Positions 43,495 through 55,239 of a DNA stretch of 64,000 nt are shown here, in pieces. Under the pieces are notes generated by a model. It ran no database searches, was not told the DNA's origin, and saw only the letters and a list, made by a program, of their open reading frames with translations. Source of the DNA: Clostridia bacterium. Its GTDB lineage: Bacteria > Bacillota > Clostridia > Acetivibrionales > DSM-27016. Location: positions 62,001 through 126,000 of the forward strand of contig JAOAIJ010000009.1 of the NCBI GenBank assembly GCA_026414765.1, given 5' to 3'. Both the position numbers and the translations under genes were made by a program. Position 1 is the first letter of the stretch; each line of letters opens with the position of its first letter.

Positions 43495-43561
43495 AAAAAC
43501 CCATATAACAAGAAGAAGGATGCACTGTTGTGCATCCTTCTTCTTGTTATATGGGTTTTTT
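43494..43561 (+). terminator. Very long perfect-stem terminator between mcp and cooS
   Basis: A 32-bp uninterrupted stem: 43494-43525 pairs with 43530-43561 around the loop TGTT, ending in TTTTTT. It begins at the last base of the chemoreceptor stop. The matching A-tract on the other side makes it bidirectional in form. TTGTTA (43544-43549), 16 bases, TAATAC (43566-43571) could be a cooS promoter overlapping the stem; this is only a possibility. Confidence 0.85.
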
Positions 43562-43628
43562 CCTCTAATACATGAAAAGTTTATTTCTAGAAAAACTAAA
43601 CATGACTATACTAAAAGGAGATGAACAC

Positions 43629-45761
43629 ATGTCCGATAACGAAATAAAAAAATCATATGAGAACAGTGCTGAAAGAATGGAAGGCAGTGAAAAAACACTT
43701 GCATCAACCTTAACTCCTTCCGATACTAACGATCCTGCTTTTCATGAAGATATTCACCAAAAGGTAAAAGTAGATTATGAAAAAATAAAAAAGTCGCCAC
43801 CGATGGAAGAAATCCATAAATGGCAGCGTGAACACATTAAAAAGGCAGATCAGTCAAAAGAAGGATATCCTCTGAATGTAATCATTGACCCTGCCATGAG
43901 AGAAATGTACCAGGCAGTGCATGATTCAGGAATGACTAACGTATTTGACCGTTTCAGCCAGCAACAACCAATTCAATGCAAATTCTGCATAGAAGGCCTT
44001 TCATGCCAGTTATGTGCCAACGGCCCATGCCGCATAAGTTCCAAAACCCCGCGAGGCACTTGTGGAGTAGATGCACACACAATGGTGTCAAGGAACTTTG
44101 TTTACAGGCATGTTACAATAGGCACATCTGCCAATATATTTCACTGCCACCAAGCTGCAAGAACATTAAGGGCGGCTGGCGAAAAGCCTGAGAGCGGACT
44201 TAAGATAAGAGATTCCGAAAAACTTAAGAAATATGCTGAAATGGCCGGATTGGATAGCAGCAAACCGGTTAATCAGCTGGCAATAGACTTTGCAGACTGG
44301 GTTATAGAGGATATACACAAACCTTTTCACACCCCTTCTTCTGCAGTGGAAGCCTTTGCTCCTGCAATGCGCAAGGAGCTATGGAGAAAACTGGATTTAT
44401 TTCCCGGAGGAGGATATAGCGAGGTTGCTTTTGCACAAACCCAGTGCATGACAAATTTCACATCAGACCCTGTCGAATTCCTGTTAAGAAGCGTAAGGTT
44501 AGGCGTCGCAAATGAATATCAGGGTTTATTCCTGCTGGATATATTACAGGAAATACTTATGGGCACGCAGGAAATCTCAATGAAAAAGCAAAATATGGGA
44601 CTCTTAAAAGAAAACATGATTAATATTGTTACAAACGGACATATGCCTCTGCTTGCTCATGTAGCGATTGATCTGGCTTCAAGCGAAGAATGGCAGAATA
44701 AAGCAAAAGCTGCCGGCGCTGACGGCATACAAGTGCTGGGTCATGTCTGTGAAGGCCAGCAGCTTATCAACTATGAAGGCACACATAACCAAAAGGGTTA
44801 TGGAGGACAGGAAGGTGAATGGTTATCCCAGGAATACCTGCTTGCTACAGGCGTTGTAGACTTGTTTATGTTTGACTATAATTGCACAGTTCCTACTATG
44901 CCTCTTTTTGCAAAGCGCTTTGGAACAAAACTCTTGAGTACACACCCTGTAATAAAACTCCAGGGCACTGAAGCGCTGGATTTTATTCCGGAAAAGATGA
45001 GTGAACAGGCAGCCAAAGCACTGGAGAAGGCTATTGATTCCTTCAAACTGCGTAGATCGGAAAACAGAAAATCATATATTCCTCCTCACGTATCCGAGTG
45101 CATGACAGGCTTCAGTACTGAATCGGTAAAAAAAGCACTTGGCGGAAGTTTCAAGCCGCTGCTCGATCAGATAGCCGGTGGAAACATACGTGGAGTCGCA
45201 ACTATTGTAGGCTGCACTACAGCCCGGTACGGACAGGGTGGAAGTAATATATTCAAGATAACAAAAGGGTTGATAGAAAATAACATATTGGTCCTTTCCG
45301 GCGGCTGCACCTCCAGTGTTATGGAATATACAGGCCTTACCAATCCAAAGGCGGCAGATGAAGCCGGTGAAGGTCTGAAAGCTGTTTGCAAACAACTCGG
45401 TATACCTCCGGTCCTTACATATGGTGCATGTGTGGATATAGGAAAAATGACTCAGACAGCAAAGGAACTGGCGGATGCCCTAGGAGTGGATACCAATAAG
45501 CTTCCCTTAGTGATTGGCGCTCCCGAATACCTGGAGCAGAAAGCAGTAGCAGATGCATGTACAGCTGTTGCATTGGGTTGGCTGGTACATGTAGCACCTG
45601 TTCCTTCAATCACAGGGAGTGATGTTGTAGTAAAAACCCTGACCGAAACTACAGAAACTCTGGGCTTAGGCAAAGTAGTCGTTGAAATGGATGCAGAAAA
45701 AACCATACAAATATATAAGGATCATATAGAGAAAAAGAGAAAAGAATTGGGATTGAATTAG
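43629..45761 (+). CDS. cooS: Ni-containing carbon monoxide dehydrogenase catalytic subunit, divergent
   Basis: Oxidises CO to CO2 at a NiFeS C-cluster, or the reverse. The 710-residue product has B-cluster ligands C126, C129, C134 and C145. The D-cluster motif is C117-K-F-C120 (CX2C), with Ser125 where the usual second D-cluster Cys stands, the form linked with a 2Fe-2S D-cluster. C-cluster ligands appear conserved: TNGHMP (His), LGHVCEGQQ, FDYNCTVP, IVGCTTARYG, SGGCTSS and YGACVD, and catalytic Lys in LEQKAVADA. An N-terminal 90-residue extension precedes the domain. ATG 43629 follows GGAGATGAACAC. No cooF, cooC or acs genes are adjacent. Confidence 0.92.
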   Translation: MSDNEIKKSYENSAERMEGSEKTLASTLTPSDTNDPAFHEDIHQKVKVDYEKIKKSPPMEEIHKWQREHIKKADQSKEGYPLNVIIDPAMREMYQAVHDSGMTNVFDRFSQQQPIQCKFCIEGLSCQLCANGPCRISSKTPRGTCGVDAHTMVSRNFVYRHVTIGTSANIFHCHQAARTLRAAGEKPESGLKIRDSEKLKKYAEMAGLDSSKPVNQLAIDFADWVIEDIHKPFHTPSSAVEAFAPAMRKELWRKLDLFPGGGYSEVAFAQTQCMTNFTSDPVEFLLRSVRLGVANEYQGLFLLDILQEILMGTQEISMKKQNMGLLKENMINIVTNGHMPLLAHVAIDLASSEEWQNKAKAAGADGIQVLGHVCEGQQLINYEGTHNQKGYGGQEGEWLSQEYLLATGVVDLFMFDYNCTVPTMPLFAKRFGTKLLSTHPVIKLQGTEALDFIPEKMSEQAAKALEKAIDSFKLRRSENRKSYIPPHVSECMTGFSTESVKKALGGSFKPLLDQIAGGNIRGVATIVGCTTARYGQGGSNIFKITKGLIENNILVLSGGCTSSVMEYTGLTNPKAADEAGEGLKAVCKQLGIPPVLTYGACVDIGKMTQTAKELADALGVDTNKLPLVIGAPEYLEQKAVADACTAVALGWLVHVAPVPSITGSDVVVKTLTETTETLGLGKVVVEMDAEKTIQIYKDHIEKKRKELGLN

Positions 45762-46722: not shown

Positions 46723-47556
46723 TTATGCGATTTTTCTCTTCAAAAAGAAGGTTGCAAAATAAAATCCTGCTGAAATGAGTACTATGGTAGCACCTGTAGC
46801 AGTACCCCAGTAATACGAAAGAATAAGGCCGGAAACTCCTGATATAATGGCTATAAGCAAGGATATTACATGGTACTGCCGGACATTTCCGGAAATATTA
46901 CGTGCCGCTGCCGCAGGTAAAACCAAAAGCGAATTTATAATCAACAAGCCCACCCATTGAATAGATATCGTTACAATAACAGCAATGATAACAGTAAAGA
47001 CGATTTCCATCAGCTGTACATTCAGCCCTCTGCTGCTCGCAAGCGACTGGTTTATGCTCACAATCATAAGCTTATTGAATATAAAAATCCAAAAAAACAT
47101 TACAACACATAATACAATAAACAAAAGCAAAATGTCAAAGGCTGTGATACTTAAAATATCCCCTATCAGATACTTCTGCAAATTTGCAGAGTTCTTCAGT
47201 ATTATCACAAGTCCGAGCGAAATGGCAATAGAAGAGAATACTCCTATTACAGTATCAGTCGAAGCAGTATTTGCATTCTTGAAAACTACTATAAACACTG
47301 CAAATATAGCAGAAAAGACTATCATGGAAAGCAGGGGGCTTTTTACCCCAAGTATGACTCCTATACCTACCCCGGTGAGTGTAGAATGTCCTATAGAATC
47401 GGAAAAGAATGCCATCCTGTTATTGACTATCATTGTGCTTAAAATGCCGAAAACCGGTGTTATTATCAAAACAGCCAGAAGTGCATTTTTCATAAATTCA
47501 TATTGTGTCCACTCAAAGGGTAGAAACGTGTTTACCAATGCATACCAGATATCCAT
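46723..47556 (-). CDS. znuB: Zinc/manganese-type ABC transporter permease
   Basis: ABC-3 family permease, 277 residues, about eight helices, with the conserved MAFFSDSIGHSTLTGVGIG, PLLSMIVFSAIFAVFIVVFK and VQWVGLLIINSLLVLPAAAA-type segments. Its ATG (47554-47556) overlaps the znuC stop (TGATG). Last gene of znuA-znuC-znuB. The metal is most likely zinc, judged from the His-rich binding protein and the Fur-type box upstream. Confidence 0.9.
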   Translation of the reverse strand: MDIWYALVNTFLPFEWTQYEFMKNALLAVLIITPVFGILSTMIVNNRMAFFSDSIGHSTLTGVGIGVILGVKSPLLSMIVFSAIFAVFIVVFKNANTASTDTVIGVFSSIAISLGLVIILKNSANLQKYLIGDILSITAFDILLLFIVLCVVMFFWIFIFNKLMIVSINQSLASSRGLNVQLMEIVFTVIIAVIVTISIQWVGLLIINSLLVLPAAAARNISGNVRQYHVISLLIAIISGVSGLILSYYWGTATGATIVLISAGFYFATFFLKRKIA

Positions 47557-48353
47557 CAATCCTCACTACCACCTTTTCTTTTTTCAGCATCTGCCGGATG
47601 AAAATACCCAAAGGTTTCAACTGCACGGGGATGGCTGAATACTTCCTTCGGGCTGCCGCTGCAAATAATAGTCCTGTTTAGAAATATCACATGGTCAGCA
47701 AACTTGGAAACCAGTGGCAAATCATGTGAAACCAGTATGATCGTCATATCATAGCTCTTCCTTAGCTCGGAAACAGTATTGTAGAACATTTCCATTCCGC
47801 AGTAATCAATGCCGGAAACAGGTTCGTCCAACAGCAGTATATCCGGCACAGGATCGAGAGCCAGAGCCAGCAGTACTCTCTGCAGCTCACCCCCTGACAG
47901 CGCACCCAGCTTCCTGTCTATGGCATATTCTGCCTGCACTCTTTCAAGAGCATCAGAAACGCTACTGCGGAGTTTTTTACTGCGAGAAAGCCATACAGGT
48001 ATTTTTGATTTGCATGCAGCAAACAAATCTAGTACACTGACGGGCGAGCTTCTGTCAAAACTGAGCTGCTGGGGAACATACCCTATTACTGGATGCCCCG
48101 TATGAACACCTTTTTCATCTAAAAATTTCAGTTCGCCCTTATGCTTTATTTCTCCAAGCACTGCTTTAAGCAAAGTACTCTTTCCTGCTCCGTTAGGCCC
48201 TATTAAAGCTGTAAGCTCCCCGCAGTGAATGTGAATGTTTATATCATCCAGTATCCTGGTTCCTCCTCTTATTACACTGAAATCCTCAATCTTAGTGCAA
48301 CAAAGCCCACAGGATTTGCTGTTTTTGTTATTAGAAGATATATTGTTTGTCAT
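47556..48353 (-). CDS. znuC: Zinc/manganese-type ABC transporter ATPase
   Basis: A 265-residue ATPase energising the metal importer. Walker A is GPNGAGKSTLLKAVLG, signature LSGGELQRVLLALAL, Walker B ILLLDEPVSGID, and switch His in VSHDLPL. The start ATG overlaps the znuA stop (ATGA), indicating translational coupling. A Cys-rich N-terminus (KSCGLCCTKIED) is unusual for the family and could touch metal. Confidence 0.93.
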   Translation of the reverse strand: MTNNISSNNKNSKSCGLCCTKIEDFSVIRGGTRILDDINIHIHCGELTALIGPNGAGKSTLLKAVLGEIKHKGELKFLDEKGVHTGHPVIGYVPQQLSFDRSSPVSVLDLFAACKSKIPVWLSRSKKLRSSVSDALERVQAEYAIDRKLGALSGGELQRVLLALALDPVPDILLLDEPVSGIDYCGMEMFYNTVSELRKSYDMTIILVSHDLPLVSKFADHVIFLNRTIICSGSPKEVFSHPRAVETFGYFHPADAEKRKGGSED

Positions 48354-49291
48354 TTCAGTGCCTCTCGTAATACATCCAGGTTTTTATCCATTATTTTTAT
48401 ATAAGCATCGGTATCGCCGTTTGCTTCCCCAGTAACTGCAGGGTCGAGAGTGAATACTTTCGCCCCCGTCTCCCGCGAAATAGTCTCAGCGGCTCCGGAA
48501 GAATACTGTGGCTCAGCAAACAAAGCCTTTATATTATTCTTCCTGACAGTTTCTATGGTATCTTTAAGCTCCTGCGCGCTTGGATCAGACCCCGGTTCTC
48601 TTTCAATAACTGCCGCTATATCAAGGACGAATTCTTTGGCGAAATATGTAAATGCTTCATGGAAAGTCACAATCCTTCTGTTTTTCAAATCCTTAAGAGC
48701 TTTATGCATCTTTTCTTTTTGCTCTTCAAGCCTCTTTACATATGCCTCAGTATTGGCCTTATATCCCGATTCGTTGTCAGGATCATATTCAGCCAGCTTT
48801 CTTCCAATGTTTTGAACCTGCTGAATTGCCTTTGATATACTTACCCATACGTGAGGATTCACTTCTTCAATATGTTCTTCAGCTTTTTCGGTATCTTCAT
48901 GGTTATGTTTTTCTTCAAGAAGCTCTATACCCTCCGAAGCCTCTATTACCTTCAGGTCTGGAAGCTGTTTTGTGACCTTGTCCATAAAAGCTTCAATCCC
49001 GGCACCGTTTATAACAAATATCTGTGCATCGTTCAAGGTTTTCATATTATCGGTAGTCAAGGAATAATCATGAAGACATCCTTTTTGTGGCTCTGTCAGG
49101 TTTACAACTTTTATTCCGGGAATATCCTTGACAACATTAATTGTATGAACATACACCGGATAAAAAGACGTCACTATTGTAAGCTTATTGCTGCCGGCTG
49201 CGGGCTCTGACTCCATTTTCTGACCGCATCCTGCCATAAGTATAATAATAGTAGTTATCAAAACACATAAATTGAACTTTTTGAGTCTCAT
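48350..49291 (-). CDS. znuA: Zinc-type ABC transporter binding lipoprotein
   Basis: Extracellular metal-binding protein of the A-1 cluster, 313 residues. A lipoprotein signal ends in ILMAGC. Metal ligands are expected in LHDYSLTTDN, NPHVWVS, TFHEAFTYFAKEF and the C-terminal Asp. A His/Glu-rich loop (EEKHNHEDTEKAEEHIEEVN) near residue 120 is characteristic of zinc rather than manganese binders. Start ATG 49289-49291 follows GGGGAGGATATAA. Confidence 0.93.
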   Translation of the reverse strand: MRLKKFNLCVLITTIIILMAGCGQKMESEPAAGSNKLTIVTSFYPVYVHTINVVKDIPGIKVVNLTEPQKGCLHDYSLTTDNMKTLNDAQIFVINGAGIEAFMDKVTKQLPDLKVIEASEGIELLEEKHNHEDTEKAEEHIEEVNPHVWVSISKAIQQVQNIGRKLAEYDPDNESGYKANTEAYVKRLEEQKEKMHKALKDLKNRRIVTFHEAFTYFAKEFVLDIAAVIEREPGSDPSAQELKDTIETVRKNNIKALFAEPQYSSGAAETISRETGAKVFTLDPAVTGEANGDTDAYIKIMDKNLDVLREALK

Positions 49292-52815: not shown

Positions 52816-55239
52816 CTATTTCACTCCCGCTAGCTTCTGTGCCAGCTTGACCGCCTCATACGCGTCTCTGGAGTATCCGTCGGCTTCTATCTCATCTGCA
52901 TATTTTTCATCGACAACAGCTCCACCGATCATAAACTTGCTTTTGATGCCTTCCGCTCTGGCCAGATCTATTACATTCTTCATTTCTACCATAGTTGTTG
53001 TCATCAGCGCAGACAAACCTATTATTTGAGCATCCAGTTCCTTCGCTTTGGCTACAATCACCTCTGCACTAACATCCTTTCCAAGATCATGTACTTTAAA
53101 TCCATAATTTTTAAGCATTAATGCAACTATGTTTTTACCTATATCATGTATATCTCCCTTCACAGTAGCCAGAACTATGACTGCACCACCCATACTGTTC
53201 TGACTTTCCGTAGTTTTAAGGAGTGGCTCGATTCGCTCGAAAGCAGTTTTCATCGTCTCTGCACTCTGTATCAACTGAGGAAGGAAATATTTTTTTTCGT
53301 CAAAGAGTTTTCCTACCTGGGTAATAGCAGGAATCAGATAGCTGTCAACAATTTCTGCCGGTTTTATGCCTTCACCCAGAGCAATGTCAATAAGTCCGGT
53401 AATACTATCCTTGCTCCCTTTCACCACTGCATCATATATTTTTTGAACTGTTGGGATGTGATCCTTTTGCAGTTTACTATCGTGGATTGTATTTTCACCT
53501 GTATCCTTGGAGAAAAAGCCTATATAGTTCAAGCTGTTTTTATCTTTCGCAGTTAAAACGTCACAAGCAAACTTAATATTCATAAGTATGTCACTGGATG
53601 GGTTTGCTATAGCCATAGTCAATCCCCTGTCTATAGCCATTGCAAGGAAAGCAGTATTTATCCAGCTTCTCTCAGGAAGGCCGAAGGACACATTTGATAA
53701 ACCCACTACAGTCCCACACTTAAAAATATCCGAACACCACTCGATTACCTTAAGCGTTTCCAGTGCCGCCTTTTGATTTGAGGAGACTGTCATCACAAGT
53801 CCATCTACCACTATATCATTTTTCCCATAACCATACTTGCACGCTTCGCAATATACCTGCTCTATTAATTTAATCCTGTCTTCAGCCTCTTCAGGAACCC
53901 CCTCGTCACTCAACGGAAGAAGTATGAACATTGCTCCATATTTTGCCGCTACCGGAAGTAGTTTTTCAATCTTTGCCTTTTCTGCAGAAACTGAATTTAT
54001 CAGGGCCCTCCCGGGATATATCCTTAAAGCAGCTTCCAACACTTCGGGTGATGATGAATCCAGGCAAAGCGGTACTTCAGAAACATTGCTCAGCAGTCCT
54101 ACCACCTTAACCATTGTTTCCTTTTCATCTATTCCCGGCATGCCTACATTTACATCCAGAACTGCAGCACCCTTTTCAGCCTGTTCAATTGCAAAGCGCC
54201 TTACTTCTGTCATTTTGCCTTCTTTGAGTTCTTCCTTAAGCTTTTTCTTACCCGTAGGGTTTATCCTTTCTCCTATGACCGATACAGGTTTATCATATCC
54301 GAAAAACACTGTACTTCTTGCTGAAGTAAGCGCACTGAATATTTCGGTCTCTACCTTCGACGGTACCAGCCCGCTTATCCCCCGTTTCATTTCACTTATA
54401 TACGCAGGTGAAGTTCCGCAGCAGCCTCCTATAAGATTTACTCCTGCCTCCACAAATGCATCTGCATATCTCCCAAACGCTACGGGCTCCATGTCAAAAA
54501 CCGTTTTCCCATCGATCAGTTTTGGTAGTCCCGCATTCGGTTTTGCCATAAGAGGGACTTTTGCAAAAGGCTTCATCATATTCAAAACTTCCAGCATATC
54601 TTCAGGTCCTGTAGAACAATTGCATCCTACTGCATCAGCTCCGAGACTCTGTAGTGTAATAAGAGCCGTAACAGGATCAGTTCCCGTCAAGGTTCTTTTA
54701 TCCTTATCGAAGGTCATACTGACCATAACAGGCAGATCACAACTTTCCTTTACAGCCAGCAAAGCCGCTCTTGCTTCCTGTATATCCATCATGGTTTCAA
54801 TAACAAATAAATCAACGCCACCTTCCAGCAGACCTTTCACTTGCTCCTTATATATATCCACACACTCCTCAAAGGGCAAATCTCCGAAAGGCTCTACGAA
54901 TCTTCCCGTAGGAGCCAGGTCACCGGCAACAAAACAATTCCCTCCTGCTGCTTTTTTTGATAACTCAGCAAGTTCTCTATTTATCTCTACTACTCTGCCG
55001 CCAAAACCAAATTCCTCAAGCTTAACCCTATTTCCACCAAAAGTGCAGGAATAAACTATATTCGAACCCGCTTTAATATACTCATCCTGCACATCAAGAA
55101 TAACCTCTGGATTTTCGATTACCCATTGCTCCGGACACACACCTTGAGGCATCCCCCTTTTTTGCAGTTCGGTTCCGGTAGCACCGTCAAGCATCACTAT
55201 TCTTTCACGTAAATACTGTCTAAAAGACTTCCTATCCAT
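52816..55239 (-). CDS. metH: Cobalamin-dependent methionine synthase without reactivation domain
   Basis: Transfers methyl from methyltetrahydrofolate via cobalamin to homocysteine, 807 residues. Domains in order: homocysteine-binding (about 1-290, VIETMMDIQEARAAL and zinc Cys in GGCCGTSPAYISEM), pterin-binding (about 315-560, VIGERINPTGKKKLKEEL, VVDGLVMTVSSNQ), cobalamin cap and Rossmann-type binding domain with the lower-ligand His in VKGDIHDIGKNIVALML (to 807). The AdoMet-dependent activation domain of E. coli MetH is absent; a separate gene upstream on the strand encodes it. ATG 55237-55239 follows GATGGAGAAAGC. Confidence 0.95.
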   Translation of the reverse strand: MDRKSFRQYLRERIVMLDGATGTELQKRGMPQGVCPEQWVIENPEVILDVQDEYIKAGSNIVYSCTFGGNRVKLEEFGFGGRVVEINRELAELSKKAAGGNCFVAGDLAPTGRFVEPFGDLPFEECVDIYKEQVKGLLEGGVDLFVIETMMDIQEARAALLAVKESCDLPVMVSMTFDKDKRTLTGTDPVTALITLQSLGADAVGCNCSTGPEDMLEVLNMMKPFAKVPLMAKPNAGLPKLIDGKTVFDMEPVAFGRYADAFVEAGVNLIGGCCGTSPAYISEMKRGISGLVPSKVETEIFSALTSARSTVFFGYDKPVSVIGERINPTGKKKLKEELKEGKMTEVRRFAIEQAEKGAAVLDVNVGMPGIDEKETMVKVVGLLSNVSEVPLCLDSSSPEVLEAALRIYPGRALINSVSAEKAKIEKLLPVAAKYGAMFILLPLSDEGVPEEAEDRIKLIEQVYCEACKYGYGKNDIVVDGLVMTVSSNQKAALETLKVIEWCSDIFKCGTVVGLSNVSFGLPERSWINTAFLAMAIDRGLTMAIANPSSDILMNIKFACDVLTAKDKNSLNYIGFFSKDTGENTIHDSKLQKDHIPTVQKIYDAVVKGSKDSITGLIDIALGEGIKPAEIVDSYLIPAITQVGKLFDEKKYFLPQLIQSAETMKTAFERIEPLLKTTESQNSMGGAVIVLATVKGDIHDIGKNIVALMLKNYGFKVHDLGKDVSAEVIVAKAKELDAQIIGLSALMTTTMVEMKNVIDLARAEGIKSKFMIGGAVVDEKYADEIEADGYSRDAYEAVKLAQKLAGVK

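Follow-up and report, generated by a model that had tools for sequence, protein, structure and literature searches.

A group D-2 member of the CO dehydrogenase family with complete C-cluster ligands and a putative hybrid-cluster-like pocket

The 710-residue protein encoded in the 64,000-nt stretch of DNA analysed here (the window) is a further member of structural group D-2 of the CO dehydrogenase (CODH) family, a group already named and phylogenetically placed in 2019 (Inoue et al., PMC6344411). Judged from aligned residues, group D-2 keeps the complete set of C-cluster cysteines within a pocket that otherwise appears to resemble a hybrid-cluster pocket. Our preferred reading, which we regard as evenly poised between right and wrong, is that the D-2 protein takes electrons from ferredoxin and acts, through a Ni-independent Fe-S(-O) cluster, as a low-potential reductase or redox protein.

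Gene structure and group assignment

The gene lies in an uninterrupted ORF of 729 codons (43572–45761, plus strand). The start at 43629, used already in the initial annotation, was preferred over that at 43572 because M1-S-D is common to the relatives and AGGAG precedes it (Table 1). The hexamer AGGAGG was found in 47/69 D-2 upstream regions and in 138/760 controls, a difference to which no weight is given, as the control starts are crude ORF calls. The near-perfect 20-bp hairpin only ~80 bases 5′ of the start codon is likely the terminator of the upstream chemoreceptor gene, parting it from the CDS, and the promoter of the D-2 gene must overlap or follow it. The next downstream gene is on the opposite strand, and the D-2 gene is monocistronic. 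Profile-search annotation of the window placed no cooF, cooC, hydrogenase or acs gene next to it, in agreement with its first description as an orphan. The adjacent metal transporter (46723–49291) was rejected as a partner, being of the zinc/manganese type, on the opposite strand and not conserved beside other D-2 genes. Elsewhere in the window, a MetH-like protein (52816–55239, minus strand) is short (806 aa), its match to the 1182-position methionine synthase model being limited to the first 857. The N-terminal extension was likewise real, the solved CODHs aligning only from about residue 78–104; its ~80 residues are family-specific, those of the C-terminal half being conserved among family members.

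Table 1. Features of the D-2 gene and its upstream region, in window coordinates
Feature	Position	Strand	Remarks
Hairpin, 20 bp, with T-run	43504..43551	.	Scored on both strands
Shine-Dalgarno AGGAG	43616..43620	+	8 nt 5′ of ATG
CDS, 710 aa	43629..45761	+	Prismane/CODH superfamily, clade D, structural group D-2
N-terminal extension, residues 1–84	43629..43880	+	No Cys; predicted helix 59–70, pLDDT about 84–87
C117-K-F-C120	43977..43988	+	Type III (CX2C) D-cluster ligands, predicted subunit-bridging [2Fe-2S] (PMC9311411, PMC6344411)
C126, C129, C134, C145	44004..44063	+	B-cluster [4Fe-4S] ligands
N169	44133..44135	+	Acid-base His position (His113 of M. thermoacetica CODH); Tyr in CooS-V and HCP
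N295	44511..44513	+	Second-shell Asp position (Asp241 of M. thermoacetica CODH)
H338	44640..44642	+	Active-site ligand (His259 of CooS-V)
C374-E375	44748..44753	+	Cys at CooS-V Glu295 position, then Glu found only in D-2
N418-C419	44880..44885	+	Asn337-Cys338 of CooS-V; Gln-Cys in canonical CODH
C529	45213..45215	+	Active-site ligand (Cys449 of CooS-V)
C560	45306..45308	+	Active-site ligand (Cys480 of CooS-V)
C601	45429..45431	+	Active-site ligand (Cys521 of CooS-V, persulfide Cys)
E636-Q-K638	45534..45542	+	E636, hybrid-cluster Glu (Glu556 of CooS-V); K638, conserved Lys
D642	45552..45554	+	Ile591 position (M. thermoacetica), lining the CO site in canonical CODHs

The protein matched the CODH catalytic subunit family TIGR01702 with E = 2e-199 and 664 bits (cut-off 478) and the Prismane family PF03063 with 483 bits (cut-off 27). 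Group D-2 of Inoue et al. (PMC6344411) is confined to bacteria and defined by a type III D-cluster, an H-C-C-C-C-C ligand set, Asn for the acid-base His, and a retained Lys. All of these were found: C-X2-C-X5-C (C117, C120, C126), H338, C374, C419, C529, C560 and C601, N169, and K638; no tested feature differed. The assignment combines this motif set (Table 2 of Inoue et al. 2019) with a position beside CooS-V in a tree that holds no D-2 reference sequence. No biochemistry of group D-2 was found in the literature searched, and papers on the Ruminiclostridium cellulolyticum proteome mention only an archaeal CODH.

In the maximum-likelihood tree of 52 proteins, for which the program warned of long branches, the window protein and 24 D-2 relatives came together in a single clade with 100/100 support, and this clade grouped with that of CooS-V (94/92). 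Clade C-like proteins fell outside, and clades B, E and F lay beyond a 100/100 branch, the clade letters of paralogues being taken from residue signatures. The tree placement called for in the initial annotation is thus clade D, next to the CooS-V clade. Among solved structures, the sequence search ranked CooS-V (7b7q) at 453 bits, CODH-IV at 375, and D. vulgaris CODH, fourth among distinct enzymes, at 330. The AlphaFold2 model (mean pLDDT 80, pTM 0.85) had CooS-V as its first Foldseek hit, although VIA-align Z scores (48 for CooS-V, 51–53 for canonical CODHs) showed no preference for it. The closest relative of known structure is CooS-V, and not D. vulgaris CODH, with which the protein had first been compared. 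The plain label "CO dehydrogenase" fares no better, given that CooS-V shows neither CO oxidation nor CO2 reduction (PMC9311411).

The D-cluster motif was present as originally described, with S125 at the second canonical position; the D. vulgaris equivalents are C45 and T50 (PDB double mutant C45G/T50C). The motif set is not a chance occurrence, since C117, C120, S125 and all the ligands are invariant in 41 relatives. As the initial annotation had stated for D. vulgaris CODH, this D-cluster type holds a [2Fe-2S] cluster, and it does so in CooS-V as well (PMC9311411). D. vulgaris CODH (group E-2, PDB 6B6V) shares with the window protein the CX2C D-cluster, the non-Cys residue at the second canonical position and the complete C-cluster ligands. 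It belongs to another clade, however, keeps the acid-base His, the Asp and the Ile, lacks the hybrid-cluster Glu, and has cooC in its operon. Because D-2 groups with CooS-V and far from clades B, E and F, the CX2C motifs of D. vulgaris CODH and D-2 arose in parallel, an origin already argued for CooS-V in PMC9311411.

Residues of the active-site pocket

The segments GHVCEGQQ (371–378), DYNCTVP (416–422) and GCTTARYG (528–535), singled out in the initial annotation, do differ from the canonical GICCTGNE, DVQCIMP and VGCNNPK. CooS-V from Carboxydothermus hydrogenoformans (group D-1, PDB 7B7Q, PMC9311411) resembles the window protein in its fold, CX2C D-cluster, B-cluster and eight of the nine hybrid-cluster residues. 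His259, Asn337, Cys338, Cys449, Cys480, Cys521, Glu556 and Lys558 of CooS-V correspond to the identical H338, N418, C419, C529, C560, C601, E636 and K638. The sole change is Glu295, the CooS-V-type replacement of the first C-cluster Cys, where the window protein and all its relatives have Cys (C374). The window protein further differs in having Asn169 for Tyr, Asn295 for Cys, and the N-terminal extension; the identity is about 34–37% in structure alignments.

Glu556 of CooS-V is a hybrid-cluster ligand and the counterpart of Glu494 in HCP (PMC9311411). At the E636 position, canonical CODHs carry Ser or His, mostly as S-x-K, and they have Q-C at N418-C419. The short, class III-like HCP encoded in the same genome as the window protein shares the Asn-Cys and Glu-x-Lys motifs, as N-C and E-Q-K at the corresponding places. 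HCPs differ in having Glu at the place of C374 (PMC9311411) and Tyr at that of N169, and the identity of the window protein to a class III HCP structure is ~19%.

Asp241 and Ile591 (M. thermoacetica numbering) shape CO catalysis in canonical CODHs. His113 in the same numbering has the acid-base role (PMC6344411). N169, N295 and D642 replace the His, Asp and Ile in every compared D-2 sequence that covers the site, so the trio found in functional Ni-CODHs of clades E/F is missing. Across 41 D-2 proteins, eight residues showed little or no variation (N169, N295, E296, H372, V373, E375, Q378 and C644); they occurred in 0/27 other CODH-family sequences. We also observed two clade D-like proteins (L115 and L116) in which Asp replaces the first C-cluster Cys, the D-cluster is of type II and the hybrid-cluster Glu is present, a combination absent from the structural-group table of PMC6344411.

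Distribution and genomic context

A pattern scan of the genomes of 84,980 species returned 94 D-2 loci. The 80 loci listed are all from Bacillota as far as titles tell, with 70–88% identity, and their hosts include Ruminiclostridium, Clostridium, Anaerocolumna, Alkaliphilus, Sporomusa, Pelosinus and Desulforamulus. In five closer species pairs, dN/dS was about 0.01–0.06, with synonymous sites near saturation in two of them. Distant species match the D-2 protein more closely than they match the anaerobic ribonucleotide reductase NrdD, also encoded in the window (identities of, for example, 86% versus 68% in Petroclostridium sp. X23, 84% versus 45% in Clostridium sp. C8-1-8). D-2 is thus under strong purifying constraint, to which gene transfer was possibly added, the data not separating the two. 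Geosporobacter ferrireducens carries two D-2 genes for near-identical proteins, 1.5 Mb apart on one chromosome. One further D-2 gene (L016/L059), 83% identical to that of the window, has an in-frame TGA at about codon 67 with the remaining frame open, which could be a nonsense mutation, a sequencing error or the sign of a later start. Selenocysteine was rejected, as the codon sits in the N-terminal extension at an Arg, away from the ligands.

D-2 was the only TIGR01702 protein in 22 of the 45 D-2 genomes examined, a set of 22 that includes some drafts along with four complete chromosomes (Petroclostridium sp. X23, Anaerocolumna AGMB13025, A. sedimenticola and Anaerocolumna MB42-C2). The acsB family (PF03598) was absent from 36/45 genomes, including all 22 with D-2 alone. 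CooC homologues were found in 14/45, namely in 14/23 genomes with a further CODH and in 0/22 with D-2 alone (Fisher p = 7e-6); the search used one CooC query at E ≤ 1e-8, confirmed by a match to 3kje (E = 2e-50), and could miss a very divergent CooC. The window's own genome (97% complete) has D-2 as its sole CODH homologue and one short HCP. The initial annotation had reported that no cooC was linked, which holds but understates the case: no CooC homologue was detected anywhere in this genome at E ≤ 1e-8. A cooC gene is a mark of E/F-type Ni-CODHs, though not a strictly defining one. The acsB search suggested at that stage was also negative, PF03598 and with it the sign of a CODH/ACS (Wood-Ljungdahl) system being absent from the genome. 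D-2 departs from the statement that the CooS-V group occurs only alongside other CODHs (PMC9311411). Nor is D-2 the only kind of CODH homologue to occur without CooC; some genomes with a second CODH that looks like clade C, as seen at loci L137 (G151) and L124, also lack cooC (G151, G152, G179 and G182).

No conserved neighbour was found among 73 D-2 loci, the commonest Pfam family occurring in 4/117 flanking genes, in line with the 64% of clade D genes reported to have no associated neighbour (PMC13056359). The D-2 gene of Thermohalobacter berrensis has as its immediate neighbour the gene of a short HCP with a class III-like sequence (locus L058, 8445–9797, minus strand). This arrangement and the Crp/Fnr-type regulators located within 10 kb of 11/73 loci are suggestive, not general. 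A nitrosative-stress regulon was considered and rejected: HcpR-, FNR-, Crp- and Rex-like palindromes upstream of the 73 genes were no commoner than in shuffles, except for a near-match to TGTGA-N6-TCACA upstream of four genes (0.2 expected), and no common operator emerged from an unbiased dyad search. An association with HCP (15/18 D-2 genomes in the relatives set versus 79/130 others, counted by hand) was not convincing. Neighbours, motifs and co-occurrence gave no link to nitrosative stress.

Proposed function and its alternatives

We read the D-2 protein as a reductase or redox protein because its pocket mostly matches that of CooS-V, which is unable to use CO. By analogy, it would be a homodimer in which a single [2Fe-2S] D-cluster bridges the subunits, with two B [4Fe-4S] clusters and a catalytic cluster in each subunit. 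The catalytic cluster is probably Ni-independent and of the Fe-S(-O) type known from CooS-V and HCP, except that Cys374 stands where these have the first Glu. Ferredoxin or another general carrier would supply electrons, which would follow a V-shaped path through the D- and B-clusters to the catalytic cluster. There, a small N- or O-containing molecule, such as a hydroxylamine/NO-type stress molecule, may be reduced, or the protein might serve as a redox reporter; CO turnover would be minor or absent. The sequence score, the first Foldseek rank, the tree grouping, the pocket residues shared with CooS-V and HCP, the replaced CO-site residues and the lack of cooC and acsB in genomes with D-2 alone argue for this reading. 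Against it stand the six canonical C-cluster ligands, all present unlike in CooS-V, the VIA-align Z scores, the negative search for a link to nitrosative stress, and the clade C-like proteins, which also have the Glu and Asp. Some clade C enzymes affect growth on CO (PMC13056359).

A genuine Ni-CODH is unlikely, but keeps a substantial minor chance. Ni would enter the complete His + 5 Cys site without CooC, trace CO would be oxidised or CO made, and Asn169 or other residues would stand in for the acid-base His. The six ligands and the Lys are invariant, and the C295A and C295E variants of CODH-II were Ni-deficient (PMC9311411), so that the retained C374 may mean that Ni is used. Moreover, lack of cooC is no proof of lack of Ni, since at high Ni both CODH-II and CODH-IV acquire the metal without CooC, and mature in this way in E. 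coli (PMC6006190). The D-cluster type also fits, having been tied to O2 tolerance in D. vulgaris CODH according to work cited in PMC9311411. All three CO-site residues are nevertheless replaced, the hybrid-cluster Glu is present, cooC and acsB are missing wherever D-2 is alone, and no CO-metabolism genes are found nearby. It is the retention of C374, together with the CooC-independent Ni uptake of CODH-II and CODH-IV, that keeps our preferred reading at even standing and the Ni-CODH in contention.

Less probable still is a third kind of active-site cluster with its own chemistry, built on the complete Cys set and E636, possibly with E375 or H372. C374 and E636 do occur with the eight D-2-specific residues, but the proposal is drawn from residue patterns, and the pairing of Cys and Glu is not unique, as clade C-like proteins combine both, with Gln for Lys. 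A related and somewhat less doubtful, though still improbable, conjecture is that D-2 holds a previously undescribed cluster of full C-cluster cysteines and hybrid-cluster carboxylates (E636, possibly E375), which would be intermediate between Ni-CODH and hybrid cluster and, across many fermentative Bacillota, might carry out a conserved reaction other than CO conversion. That the protein is a redox sensor or regulator that catalyses little, a role suggested for clade D generally (PMC13056359), is very improbable, for the lone gene without a conserved partner and the scattered Crp/Fnr-type regulators must be set against the lack of any fixed regulator neighbour or shared upstream motif, and invariance of the full pocket fits catalysis equally.

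As far as the literature consulted goes, the hybrid-cluster Glu and Asn shared by D-2, the pocket residues found only in D-2, and the fact that D-2 often stands as the only CODH homologue of a genome lacking both cooC and acsB are new. Its strong conservation in genomes with no other CODH homologue suggests that D-2 has its own function and is not a spare copy of an active CODH. The CO dehydrogenase model used to name genes matches D-2, and non-acetogenic genomes may thus be credited with a CO metabolism that they lack. In CooS-V, the exchange of Cys for Glu goes together with the other features of the hybrid-cluster pocket; D-2 separates the two, and could thereby show whether Cys295 alone decides between a Ni-Fe-S and an Fe-S-O cluster.
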